64,000 bases of DNA, taken from assembly GCF_000764655.1 (NCBI RefSeq), contig NZ_JRGL01000007.1, positions 1-64,000 of the forward strand. The letters are read 5' to 3'. Shown here piece by piece: positions 36,842 to 40,586 of the stretch. Numbering within the stretch: position 1 is the stretch's first letter; every line of letters starts with the position of its first letter. The notes under the pieces were generated by a model. The model saw only the letters and a program-made list of their open reading frames with translations. It was not told where the DNA came from and made no database searches. The position numbers and the translations under genes are program-made. The DNA comes from Aeromonas aquatica. GTDB lineage: Bacteria; Pseudomonadota; Gammaproteobacteria; Enterobacterales; Aeromonadaceae.

Positions 36842-37003
36842 CGACATTATGAGGCTAAGGGCTGAGCCCTAAATCAGCCCCCGATTACACAGGACGGCCA
36901 GCCGCTCATTCACCATCACCGCCACCGGCTTCCTTTACCGATCTTTAATGGTTGCTGCACGACACCGTACTCAAAATGGCCCTAACTCCGCCCCGATGCA
37001 CGA

Positions 37004-37031: not shown

Positions 37032-37169
37032 TGAGGGAGTTGAACCGGCCATTACCACCCAATAGTCACTCAATTTATTGATCTCGCCCGAGAAACCACT
37101 ATCTCCCCCTTCCCTCACCAGCCCCGTTCGATAACATAGCCATCAGGAAAATCTCTCGTCGGAGTCACC

Positions 37170-37342
37170 ATGAATCAGGCCAGAGCAACACCGCAGGTAA
37201 ACATCAGCAAACTGGAGGCTGTCATTCAGGGGCAGTAGCTTTGTCTGATGAAATAGATAAGCAAGTGGCGGCATGTAGTGCGTCACTCAAACATAGTGGC
37301 AGTCCCAATTTCATTACAAATTTTTTATTTCTGTGGGTGTAA
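37170..37342 (+). pseudogene. Remnant of a small gene at the island's left edge
   Basis: After GGAGTCACC, an ATG opens MNQARATPQVNISKLEAVIQ and stops at 37236. Shifting one frame continues with AVALSDEIDKQVAACSASLK to a stop at 37342, where the sequence is already AT-rich. This looks like one small reading frame broken by a frameshift and perhaps cut by insertion of the island. The original product is not recognised. Confidence 0.4.
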
Positions 37343-37420
37343 CTAGTTTTTCAAACACCGAGAAGTCAGAAATTAAATAACTATTTACCCCTCTCATAAG
37401 CATTGGTAACAAAGGAGGAT

Positions 37421-38143
37421 ATGTTGATATTATATAAATACATGCCATGCAATGAATTTACTTTCAAAGCATTAGCTGTGAGAGGATTATGGTGTCATAA
37501 CCCTAGAGAAATGAATGATCCTTCTGAATGTTTGGATATACTTGAACGAACTTTACCTGTTCCTGAGATTGTGAAGCTTCACGAGCTAATTAAATCAACT
37601 CCAAACTCACCACTAGCTATGCTGGCTAATTTACCTAATAATCAAGTAAACAAAATACTCTCTGAGTCCAGAAAGAGAATGGCTAATTCATTTGCCTTTT
37701 GCTCACTAAGCACAAAGTGCGATGACGTATTAATGTGGTCTCATTATGCTAATTGTCACAAGGGAATGGTAATTGGTATTGAGCCTGATACGGACGAAGC
37801 TCAAGACAGTTTACAAAAAGTTGAATACTTGAATCATTTGCCAGATTGGAACGTTGAAGAATACTTTAGATTTATGAATGGTGAAGACGAGTTCAGGCAT
37901 ATATTCCTGAGAGACTTATCTGTTAAGTCAAAACATTGGCATCAAGAATCTGAATATAGAATTTGGAGAAAACAACCAGGATATTGGCTTTACAAAGAAG
38001 AGCAGATTAAAGAAGTATATTTTGGGGTTGATTGCGATTTAATCACTAAGAAAGTTGTTTTGGAATTATTGAATTTCCTACCAGAGAATTTCCCTATATA
38101 TGAAATGGAAATAAACAAGGAAACATTAGACCTGACTTGGTAA
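37421..38143 (+). CDS. DUF2971 domain protein
   Basis: 240 residues. The family pattern is clear: LYKYMP at the start, NPREMNDPSE (27-36), FAFCSLS (91-97), MWSHYANCHKG (105-115), HWHQESEYRIW (172-182) and EVYFGVD (198-204). DUF2971 proteins are of unknown biochemical function and are scattered through accessory regions of bacterial genomes. GGAGG precedes the start with only 2 nt before the ATG at 37421; TTG at 37424 (5-nt gap) or TTG at 37403 are alternatives. It is AT-rich and lies 142 nt upstream of the SIR2 gene on the same strand, so the two may act together. Confidence 0.85.
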   Translation: MLILYKYMPCNEFTFKALAVRGLWCHNPREMNDPSECLDILERTLPVPEIVKLHELIKSTPNSPLAMLANLPNNQVNKILSESRKRMANSFAFCSLSTKCDDVLMWSHYANCHKGMVIGIEPDTDEAQDSLQKVEYLNHLPDWNVEEYFRFMNGEDEFRHIFLRDLSVKSKHWHQESEYRIWRKQPGYWLYKEEQIKEVYFGVDCDLITKKVVLELLNFLPENFPIYEMEINKETLDLTW

Positions 38144-38285
38144 TGTCACCTCACAATATTTTAATAGTGATTCGCAACGCATGTCGCTTTTACTATGCAT
38201 TGTGTTTAGCAATTAAGGTTCCTGCAGATTATTATGTATTGCGTTACTCACACATTTAAAAAGCAGTATATTTACAAGGATAATT

Positions 38286-39803
38286 ATGAGCTGTATCAAC
38301 CAATTGAATTATGATGTAAAAATAAGCCTTTTTTCATCAATATACTTAAAAAACTACTTTCTCTGGATAGGTTCAGGATTTTCATATAATTTTGGATTTG
38401 GTAGCTGGGAAGATGTTTTAAAAAAGATTAGTGATAAAATTAAATATCCGCTGGATCTCGATGTTAAAAATCCCCTCAAAGCTGCAGAACTACTATGTGC
38501 ATTTTCAAAACAAGAAAAAGGGTTTGATGAAATCAAGTTTAACTCTTTAGTTGCTGAATCACTCTTAGAGCTAAAAAGTGATAATGTTGAACCTGACTGG
38601 GTTCGACGTTTTAGAGCATTTTCTCCCAATATGATAGTGACTACCAACTGGGATAACCAATTAGAAACTATATATGATAACCTCGTAAATGTTGTAGTTA
38701 GAAAAGATAGAGCACCTCAAGTTTCAAATACGGGTAAAAATTTATTTAAAATTCATGGTGATGTGGGAAGACCGGCAAGTATAGTAGTCACCCAAAGCCA
38801 ATACTTTTCATTTCAAAGAGAGGACACTTACCTCAACAGGAAAATATACACCTTATTTTCAGAGGCTTCTCCAATTTTCCTTGGCTATAGCCTGACAGAT
38901 CCAAATATTGGATTTTTATATGACGAAGTTTATGCCCACTTAGGAGAAGAAAAGCCGCCTGCATTTATGGTTGTTCACCCAACAGTTGATGACAAGGTTT
39001 TACAAGAATCAAAATTACTATTTAAAGATAAAAACATTCATATTATAAAAGCTGAAATAGGTGAGTTCTTAGAAGATCTTTCAAGTGAATTCAGAGAGTA
39101 TAAAAAATCCGGAAAACGATTTTTTGTGGAGCATGCAAATATAAAAGTGAGATTAAAGGAAATTGTAGATCTTATTATTGTCAATAAAAAAATATCTCAA
39201 GATGATGTATTGAAACGCTTTAATAATCGTGACTCTAGACAGCAATCTGTTAAAGCTTTTGTAGAAATACTATCTAATCAATTGCTGTATGTAGAATTTG
39301 GTGGGAAACTATTATCCCCTGAAAACATAATGTCTTATAGAGAAATCGATCAAATAGTTAACTCTATAGTTTTATTGGTAAATGAAGATGGGTATCCTAA
39401 CCAAGTTGTAAGAGAAAATTTTTACACATCGGTAATGAGATTGTGCTCCAAGTCAGATGGAGTATGGGATTTTTATAGTGCCAAACAGCCATTCTATAAC
39501 GTATTGAGAATTTCACCAGGCGTCGAAAGCTCAATATACAGTGAACGAATCTCTCACATAATAGAAGTTTTAAGGTGGTCTGGAAAAGGTAAACTTGGTA
39601 AGTGCTGGGATACATGGGATGTGTTTTGCAAGCAAATAAATTGGTTTAGTGAATCAGATATTGAAGGAATTCTCATTGAAATGGAAAAAGATGAACTCTC
39701 ATTTTATCGAGAATCTGACCAAGCTTGGCTATCAAAATTAAAGGATTGTAAAAACATTACTAACGCACAAAAAATGCGTATAGATAGCATTGTTAACATA
39801 TAA
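38286..39803 (+). CDS. SIR2-domain protein, candidate anti-phage NADase
   Basis: 505 residues. Residues about 20-275 form a SIR2-like Rossmann domain: GSGFS (29-33) for NAD binding, TTNWD (119-123) with the conserved Asn121, KIHGD (155-159) with His157, and FLGYSLTDPNI (198-208). These are the positions used by NAD-consuming defence sirtuins such as ThsA and the DSR proteins. Residues about 280-505 form a helical, charged region with no known motif, which could be a sensor or oligomerisation domain. It is shorter than DSR1/DSR2 and lacks the SLOG domain of ThsA as far as I can see. NAD depletion on infection is an inference from the family. Confidence 0.85.
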   Translation: MSCINQLNYDVKISLFSSIYLKNYFLWIGSGFSYNFGFGSWEDVLKKISDKIKYPLDLDVKNPLKAAELLCAFSKQEKGFDEIKFNSLVAESLLELKSDNVEPDWVRRFRAFSPNMIVTTNWDNQLETIYDNLVNVVVRKDRAPQVSNTGKNLFKIHGDVGRPASIVVTQSQYFSFQREDTYLNRKIYTLFSEASPIFLGYSLTDPNIGFLYDEVYAHLGEEKPPAFMVVHPTVDDKVLQESKLLFKDKNIHIIKAEIGEFLEDLSSEFREYKKSGKRFFVEHANIKVRLKEIVDLIIVNKKISQDDVLKRFNNRDSRQQSVKAFVEILSNQLLYVEFGGKLLSPENIMSYREIDQIVNSIVLLVNEDGYPNQVVRENFYTSVMRLCSKSDGVWDFYSAKQPFYNVLRISPGVESSIYSERISHIIEVLRWSGKGKLGKCWDTWDVFCKQINWFSESDIEGILIEMEKDELSFYRESDQAWLSKLKDCKNITNAQKMRIDSIVNI

Positions 39804-39842
39804 CTAGCAGTTTATAGATGGGACGTAAACAATTTGACTTAC

Positions 39843-39869
39843 GGTGCAATGCGCTGCACTTATTGCACC
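39843..39869. repeat. Inverted repeat at the island's right edge
   Basis: Perfect 8-bp arms GGTGCAAT/ATTGCACC around an 11-nt centre, followed by CTAC. It looks like the small dispersed GGTGCAAT-type palindromes seen in many gammaproteobacterial intergenic regions; the assignment is tentative. Confidence 0.55.
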
Positions 39870-39942
39870 CTACATCCATCTCAAAAACGCTCGGCGGAGA
39901 AATAGCGGCAGCGACAAAGGGAATGGTTGGCAGGCAGTAAGC

Positions 39943-39992: not shown

Positions 39993-40586
39993 TCAGTCGA
40001 GAAGCTCCCGCTGGCGCAGGGCGGTCAGCAGCTCATCCACCAGCACGGCCGCCGGCTTACCGGCGTTTAGCAGATGGATCTCGGGTTGCTCCGGCGCCTC
40101 GTAGGCGGAATCGATGCCGGTGAAATTGCGGATCTCCCCCGCCCTCGCCTTCTTGTATAACCCCTTGGGGTCGCGCTCTTCACAGACGGAGAGCGGTGCA
40201 TCGACAAATACCTCGACGAACTCGTCCGCCCCCAGAAGGTTTCGCACCAGATCCCGCTCGGCACGGAACGGCGAGATAAAGGCGGTGAGGACGATTAGGC
40301 CCGCATCCACCATTAATTTCGCCACTTCGCCGACCCGGCGGATGTTCTCCTGCCGGGCGGCATCGTCGAAGCCGAGATCACCACAGAGGCCGTGGCGCAC
40401 GTTATCGCCATCCAGCAGATAGGTGTGCTTGCCCTCGGCCGCCAGTGCCTGCTCCAGCGCCCCCGCCAGGGTGGACTTGCCCGCCCCGGACAAGCCGGTA
40501 AACCAGAGCACCAGCGGTTTCTGTGCCTTCAACTGCGATCGGCTCTGCTTGCTGACGGCATGCTGATGCCACACGACATTGTTCAT
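39993..40586 (-). CDS. cysC: Adenylylsulfate kinase
   Basis: A 197-residue APS kinase that phosphorylates APS to PAPS in sulfate assimilation. P-loop [31 protein letters not shown] and the C-terminal lid are all present. Last gene of the cysG-cysD-cysN-cysC minus-strand cluster. The start at 40586 ([14 protein letters not shown]) matches the family. Confidence 0.96.

Follow-up and report, generated by a model that had tools for sequence, protein, structure and literature searches.

A JUMPstart/ops-led exchange site for candidate defence genes at the 3' end of cysC in Aeromonas

A 64,000-nucleotide stretch of Aeromonas aquatica DNA (assembly GCF_000764655.1, contig NZ_JRGL01000007.1, positions 1 to 64,000; hereafter the window) carries an AT-rich island of two genes, for a DUF2971 protein and a SIR2 protein, next to the 3' end of cysC. 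The island is preceded by a JUMPstart element with its ops core. We consider it likely that the two genes are independent candidate defence genes carried as cargo at a genus-wide Aeromonas exchange site, which is led by JUMPstart/ops and expressed through RfaH. Comparison of Aeromonas genomes showed a fixed site with cargo that varies between species, is mostly AT-rich and lies nearly all in one direction behind a leader of about 200 bp ending in JUMPstart/ops. As a genomic pattern, an antitermination-led exchange site for defence genes is well supported; its mechanism is a proposal. To our knowledge such a site has not previously been described. The features of the locus are as follows.

36869..36931, minus strand: decayed relic of cysC, 20 codons from its C-terminal end (KPVAVMVNERLAVLCNRGLI) followed by a stop one codon early; a direct repeat of the 3' end of intact cysC
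37040..37239, plus strand: leader block conserved at the cysC site across the genus, with similarity ending at the end of the ops core (shared 11-mers, leader alignment)
37170..37238, plus strand: 22-codon leader open reading frame (ORF) with its TAG stop within ops, of doubtful function (in frame in 22 of 27 leaders)
37205..37242, plus strand: JUMPstart (RF01707, Rfam covariance model), with ops GGCAGTAGCTTT at 37231-37242
37421..38143, plus strand: cargo gene 1, DUF2971 protein, PADLOC family PDC-S31 (ORF list, Pfam, PADLOC)
38286..39803, plus strand: cargo gene 2, SIR2_2 protein whose C-terminal region, at about residues 258-503, is all-helical (ORF list, Pfam, PADLOC, homologue alignment, structure model)
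39993..40586, minus strand: intact cysC, its 3' end forming the right edge of the exchange interval (sequence and neighbouring sulphate-assimilation genes)

A fixed site with variable cargo

The first-pass annotation had described two AT-rich, co-directional genes between a chemoreceptor gene and the cysteine operon, and both the ORFs and the dip in G+C fraction (GC) were confirmed. The flanks have a GC of about 0.58-0.67, falling to 0.30-0.36 in 500-bp windows from 37.25 to 39.75 kb. Overall GC is 0.612, and the island is the sole stretch of the window with 1-kb steps below 0.45. We named cysC from its own sequence and its place, and its neighbours CysN and CysD from a named A. caviae record, which the cys operon matches at 88.4% across the full query.

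An orthologue of cysC (80-100% identity) is present in 36 of 37 Aeromonas genomes, with a weak match only in G002, and the interval behind it was inspected in all 36. This interval reaches the chemoreceptor gene or the next conserved gene in 27 genomes, and in 26 of these fully read loci a 26-bp motif precedes the cargo on the cargo strand. The motif is also present in G021 and G026, where the contig ends within the interval, bringing the total to 28 of 36 loci. Six further loci stop at a contig edge, and G027 has neither a conserved flank nor the motif in 10 kb. The 27 intervals are about 2 to 8.3 kb long, have a GC of 0.37-0.52 and differ in content. The cargo strand holds all of their AT-rich ORFs (GC <0.48, at least 150 residues, no runs of N). 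None of the intervals read was empty, and some cargo is common to different species (for example G010 and G004, or G003 and G020). With fixed flanks enclosing differing, defence-rich cargo, the site has the features of a defence hotspot.

Two stacked JUMPstart elements occur inside one island at L082, L083 and L090 (in G014, G023 and G021), and at L157 (G018) two elements are 178 bp apart, as if leader and cargo could be added as a unit. The cysC intervals of G004 and G019 (L081 and L097) share an identical 316-residue ORF, which by eye resembles a REP-associated transposase.

The JUMPstart/ops leader

Between species, similarity at the cysC site breaks off sharply at the 26-bp motif. Among 28 loci, shared 11-mers were found in 59-96% of locus pairs in each of the four 50-bp bins spanning -200 to 0, and in at most 15% in other bins. 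The leader alignment took in 27 cysC-site leaders. The JUMPstart element of the window scores 36.2 bits against a gathering threshold of 35 (E 1.1e-5) and so belongs to the Rfam family; the motif has a single match in the window and none in 100 shuffles. The element ends 178 nt before the ATG at 37421, on the sense strand. The start of the DUF2971 gene is ambiguous: this ATG, shortly after AGGAGG, or a TTG at 37424 or 37403. The left boundary that the first-pass annotation had given for the island, 37205, is the exact first base of JUMPstart, an element that it did not name.

JUMPstart/ops, read by RfaH, is better known from surface-sugar and virulence operons. The ops copy of the window keeps C3, G5, T6, A7, G8 and T11 and has A in place of G4 of the E. 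coli form, from which it also deviates at G10 and G12. The bases most important for RfaH recruitment and pausing are G5, T6, G8 and T11 (PMC5995543), and these, together with C3, are retained in the window. All 31 ops copies at cysC sites keep G5, T6, A7, G8 and T11.

The motif was found in all 37 genomes of the genus, with no match in any to a reversed-pattern control, and RF01707 likewise in all 37, with 256 matches. RfaH (TIGR01955) exceeds its cut-off in 36 of the 37 genomes, including G000:C128; the exception, G030, is an 80% complete genome. Of 295 genomes sampled from the order, all 16 members of the genus carry the Aeromonas-type pattern, as do 2 of the 279 others, and other genera may have different forms of the element. 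One of the two outside matches (L180) leads O-antigen-like genes by eye. The other (L179, G113:C9) is followed by an antisense integrase, by eye resembling an integron integrase, and then by several small co-directional ORFs.

Of 75 motif sites, one of which has three mismatches and is doubtful, 50 carry an ORF of about 22 codons that terminates within ops. We regard a functional leader peptide as doubtful: the ratio of nonsynonymous to synonymous polymorphism (pN/pS) is 0.69, showing little sign of selection, and several copies are out of frame. A promoter scan gave 14 matches against 10.6 expected and was uninformative.

Candidate defence genes in the cargo

A filter for ORFs on the cargo strand with at least 120 residues, GC <0.48 and no N gave 73 ORFs at cysC sites. 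We scanned 61 of these jointly for protein families, omitting near-duplicates and a few others, and considered the top 25 of 54 Pfam families. In addition, we ran PADLOC on 20 individual proteins, picked by length or look from 17 loci. At a threshold of 1e-5, 12 of the 20 proteins matched, at 10 of the 17 loci besides the window's own:

G032: viperin (3.7e-103)
G011: Hachiman HamA and HamB (1e-106 and 6.1e-182)
G015: reverse transcriptase UG17 and SLATT partner (1.4e-157 and 4.2e-50)
G028: AbiU (1.6e-155)
G033: FRG-domain PDC-S15
G036: PDC-S31
G008: PDC-S50
G003: HNH effector-like protein
G014: AriA/GajA-like ATPase
G031: HNH, weak match (2e-6)

One recurrent cargo gene, found by eye in six species (L074, L078, L082, L083, L088 and L090), is not defence-like and often adjoins a SnoaL-like protein; in the three copies scanned it matches the Pfam S9/dienelactone hydrolase families.

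Other JUMPstart-led loci

Forty loci at other JUMPstart sites were fetched. From 15 of these we took 20 proteins for scanning, selected once more by length or look. PADLOC matched 15 of the 20 proteins, at 13 of the 15 loci, at 1e-8. The cargo includes Upx (1.2e-231), SIR2+HerA (4.5e-135 and 1.2e-242) and ThsB (2.4e-66), as well as Septu PtuA/PtuB, a SEFIR-NACHT protein, a type IIG restriction-modification (RM) protein and HEC-06. Pfam places SIR2_2 with an nSTAND domain at two JUMPstart sites, and the window genome's own site beside thrC carries PDC-M01A (8.6e-221). At L117 and L122, JUMPstart leads rml-type O-antigen genes (by eye), its classic use.

The thrC side (L108, L123, L152-L157) appears to be a second recurring JUMPstart-led exchange site, its cargo being PDC-M01A, Upx, SEFIR-NACHT, SIR2-nSTAND, Septu or an AriA-like ATPase depending on species; the gene name was read from a translation, and that these loci share one place is a judgement by eye, based on the form of the motif and the ORFs on either side. 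A third recurring site (L116, L124, L159, L160, L165, L167, L171) lies near genes that by eye are glyoxalase-, hydrolase- and enolase-like, and its ops is often GGCGGTAGCCAT, which has no T at position 11. Genome G008 has ten motif copies and further RF01707 matches, several of them before different defence loci (ThsB, IIG RM, HEC-06, SIR2-nSTAND and SIR2+HerA).

Within 4 kb downstream of JUMPstart and on the same strand we found 5 of the 25 DUF2971 matches in the genus, 4 of the 19 SIR2_2 matches and 2 of the 9 TIR_2 matches, where 0.08, 0.06 and 0.03 were expected (binomial P 1.5e-8, 3.5e-7 and 3.4e-4). Pooled, 11 of 53 lie behind JUMPstart against 0.17 expected, and none is antisense; one DUF2971 match is also upstream of a second, stacked JUMPstart. 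A transposase control (DDE_Tnp_1, first 100 listed) gave 2 against 0.31 expected (P 0.04); a further match was antisense and two lay upstream. The expectation was computed from all 256 sites and the positions from 193. Two of the eleven matches are the window finding itself, and the G011 and G033 cargo proteins (766 and 753 residues) are related, so that not all are independent. Nor was the test blind, as several DUF2971 genes behind the motif, one SIR2-like cargo gene (L113) and one TIR-like cargo gene (L111) had been noticed beforehand; the P values are therefore too small. Base composition changes at the element as well: GC is 0.597 upstream of JUMPstart and 0.404 downstream, and lower downstream at 68 of 71 sites.

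The SIR2 and DUF2971 proteins

The SIR2 protein matches Pfam SIR2_2 (3.4e-24). All four motifs reported in the first-pass annotation as NAD-binding and catalytic positions (GSGFS, TTNWD, KIHGD and GYSLTDP) are in place, and in seven homologues compared N121, H157 and Y201-N207 (YSLTDPN) are invariant. It thus combines a SIR2 domain with the catalytic Asn and His of SIR2 defence NADases. Its SIR2 core matches those of the defence NADases KomC (6.8e-16) and ThsA (3e-12), and H157 aligns with KomC H146, a position occupied by N in a solved mutant chain. It differs from both in its C-terminal half, which matches neither a Pfam model (E≤1) nor, by sequence, any solved chain. Its predicted structure is of moderate confidence (mean pLDDT, the predicted local distance difference test score, 64.6; core residues 112-197 below 50), and as the core is weak the model was used for the helical C-terminus only. 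The best PADLOC match, to the candidate family PDC-S25 (1.1e-26), covers SIR2 residues 117-261 only, a match over the SIR2 domain rather than the full length.

Full-length or nearly full-length homologues with 51-67% identity are found in Vibrio barjaei, V. mimicus, 7 of 5,426 E. coli genomes and five viral contigs. The three E. coli loci that were opened, of the seven genomes, are all P2-like prophages in which the gene sits between the baseplate V gene and a virion morphogenesis gene. The nearest homologue (L172, 67%) lies between an apparent replication-protein end and portal/terminase genes, named by eye. The P2-like defence hotspot lies between gpA and gpQ (Rousset et al., PMC9122126), and the position of L172 corresponds to the region described there.

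The DUF2971 protein matches its Pfam family at 6.1e-7 and the candidate defence family PDC-S31 at 8.1e-39 over residues 3-244. It has no match among solved chains (best 0.31), and no relative was found in the viral contigs searched. DUF2971 genes are carried by 238 plasmid records, among them many of 100-120 kb from Salmonella, Klebsiella and Enterobacter, and by SSU5-type phages.

The first-pass annotation had proposed that the two genes form one anti-phage system, in which the SIR2 NADase is coupled to DUF2971 as sensor or regulator. The genes are adjacent and co-directional with a gap of 142 bp, both are AT-rich, and both proteins fall in defence-candidate families; these families (PDC-S31 and PDC-S25) are separate. 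The same annotation had named the absence of recurrent pairing as grounds for giving up the proposal, and such pairing is what the genomes lack. No DUF2971 gene was found beside the SIR2 homologues at ten other loci (L011-L015 and L172-L176, three of them E. coli copies of one prophage kind; tblastn E≤1, flanks of 1.7-8 kb). Among the 37 genomes, with 25 DUF2971 and 19 SIR2_2 matches, the two families occur together in one, that of the window. Moreover, neighbours at the cysC site differ among species, for example in G014, G021 and G023. We therefore regard a single system as very improbable. The genes are probably two independent candidate phage-defence genes in one shared island, and the pair itself is ordinary, consisting of two members of candidate families already listed in PADLOC. 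The other elements of the earlier description still hold: the island is probably acquired and probably anti-phage, and its SIR2 protein is of the NADase type.

Origin of the island

The CysC relic upstream of the leader has a profile score of 44.3; the best of 300 shuffles of that stretch reached 25.5. An earlier 22-residue profile window gave no match, being unable to fit a relic that ends one residue early. The 20-residue scan was set after weak tblastn matches and is thus a confirmation rather than a blind test. Similar relics lie between the chemoreceptor gene (or next conserved gene) and the leader in four of 26 loci (the window, G011, G017 and G036), each with the direct repeat of the target 3' end on the far side that marks a site-specific island. 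The A. caviae island holds a 56-codon cysC fragment. From the relic as direct repeat we infer integration at the cysC 3' end, and these remnants suggest that cargo first entered in this way and that the duplicate then decayed. CysC C-termini are of two main kinds, ending in RGLID-like or RQGNYL sequences. We also considered an integron, with attC sites separating the cargo genes; a strict scan of our own, unvalidated on known attC, found no attC-like boxes in 120,595 bases or in shuffles.

Proposed mechanism and alternatives

In E. coli, RfaH loads at ops, remains on RNA polymerase, counters Rho and brings transcription through H-NS-coated, AT-rich acquired operons (PMC9765446). By analogy, transcription at the cysC site would start within the conserved leader, and RNA polymerase would pause at ops and take up RfaH, which would exclude NusG, oppose Rho and H-NS-assisted termination and bring in ribosomes. 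A foreign AT-rich gene behind ops would thereby be expressed. The SIR2 protein would serve as an effector that consumes NAD, with its helical C-terminal region as sensor, in the manner of ThsA and KomC, and DUF2971 would act separately. Cargo would integrate at the cysC 3' end, duplicating that end, and would now be exchanged, probably via recombination between the conserved flanks. RfaH control of the defence genes is thus what we infer from sequence.

JUMPstart is described as an element with a conserved stem-loop in the leaders of polysaccharide genes (PMC2864571), and in an Aeromonas O11 cluster it lies 132 bp before ORF1 (PMC4413209). The RfaH regulon of E. coli CFT073 comprises eight operons for lipopolysaccharide/O-antigen, capsule, haemolysin, proteins related to type VI secretion and uncharacterised proteins (PMC9765446). 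The sites described here share with such operons, including those for Aeromonas O-antigen, the Rfam element with its ops core, one ops before acquired genes and the presence of rfaH in the genome. They differ in that the cargo consists of a few short, unrelated and exchangeable genes, with many defence families among them, rather than one long envelope or virulence operon. The core hotspots of P. aeruginosa (PMC10250203) and P2/P4-like hotspots (PMC9122126) similarly have fixed flanks and variable defence cargo of a few kb, but the parts of those papers available describe no common antitermination entry leader. Among open-licence PMC titles and the beginnings of abstracts, with larger result sets covered in part, we found no link of RfaH, JUMPstart or ops to phage-defence genes, nor was there an RfaH/ops-defence link in the available parts of PMC13015549, PMC12607645, PMC6391919, PMC10511110 and PMC11288032.

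The leader might instead be a passive homology handle for the swapping of cargo, with RfaH having little or no role in expression. It is indeed the conserved stretch, at whose end similarity stops, there are several JUMPstart copies per genome, copies are stacked in single islands of G014, G021 and G023, and the ops of the window is altered. We nevertheless consider a purely passive leader unlikely, as the bases critical for RfaH are kept in every cysC-site copy despite divergence in the rest of the leader, all eleven downstream matches are in the sense orientation and rfaH is present. An ordinary genomic island at the cysC 3' end, with defence genes as chance cargo and a JUMPstart left by one old polysaccharide island, would account for the CysC relic, the A. 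caviae fragment and the polysaccharide-like cargo at L117 and L122. However, JUMPstart precedes defence cargo at several other chromosomal sites, and the defence families are enriched relative to the transposase control, so that the chance of so ordinary an origin seems slight indeed.

Several findings weigh against an RfaH-expressed defence exchange site. The window JUMPstart passes its threshold narrowly and, given G4 to A, its ops copy may be weakened; of the single ops changes tested in E. coli, all but G2C reduced the effect of RfaH (PMC5995543). At 20 of the 75 motif sites, none of them at cysC, ops has no T at position 11, and G019 has conserved flanks but no motif. No defence match was obtained for 8 of the 20 cargo ORFs at cysC and 5 of the 20 elsewhere, and the hydrolase and SnoaL-like genes that recur in the cargo are not defence-like. 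Of the DUF2971, SIR2_2 and TIR_2 matches, 42 of 53 are not within 4 kb behind JUMPstart, and the transposase control itself slightly exceeds expectation. Finally, the CysC relic is absent from 22 of the 26 loci, and no integrase is present in the window island or was noticed among the top 25 Pfam families of the 61 cargo proteins.

Implications

We tentatively extend the RfaH-expressed exchange site beyond cysC, with a chance that we put somewhat short of even: RfaH may quite generally open up the chromosomal immune arsenal of Aeromonas, and JUMPstart/ops leaders may serve as landing and expression sites beside cysC, thrC, the glyoxalase-eno genes and others. A fixed antitermination leader usable by any incoming gene would be a simple answer to the question of how foreign, AT-rich and H-NS-prone defence genes come to be expressed so early after they arrive. 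O-antigen is a common phage receptor, and loss of rfaH is a usual route to phage resistance. If the extension is correct, one factor expresses both O-antigen and internal defences, loss of rfaH also disarms the cell, and envelope variation and internal immunity are joined through one regulator. It would also provide a search rule, by which genes behind JUMPstart in Aeromonas are defence candidates; these include cysC-site cargo proteins of 431 and 432 residues in G010 and G030 with no Pfam or PADLOC match.

Palindrome near cysC

A palindrome, GGTGCAAT...ATTGCACC, lies at 39843-39869 of the window, and related forms are found just behind cysC in G036, G009 and G029. It has the look of a short palindromic repeat.

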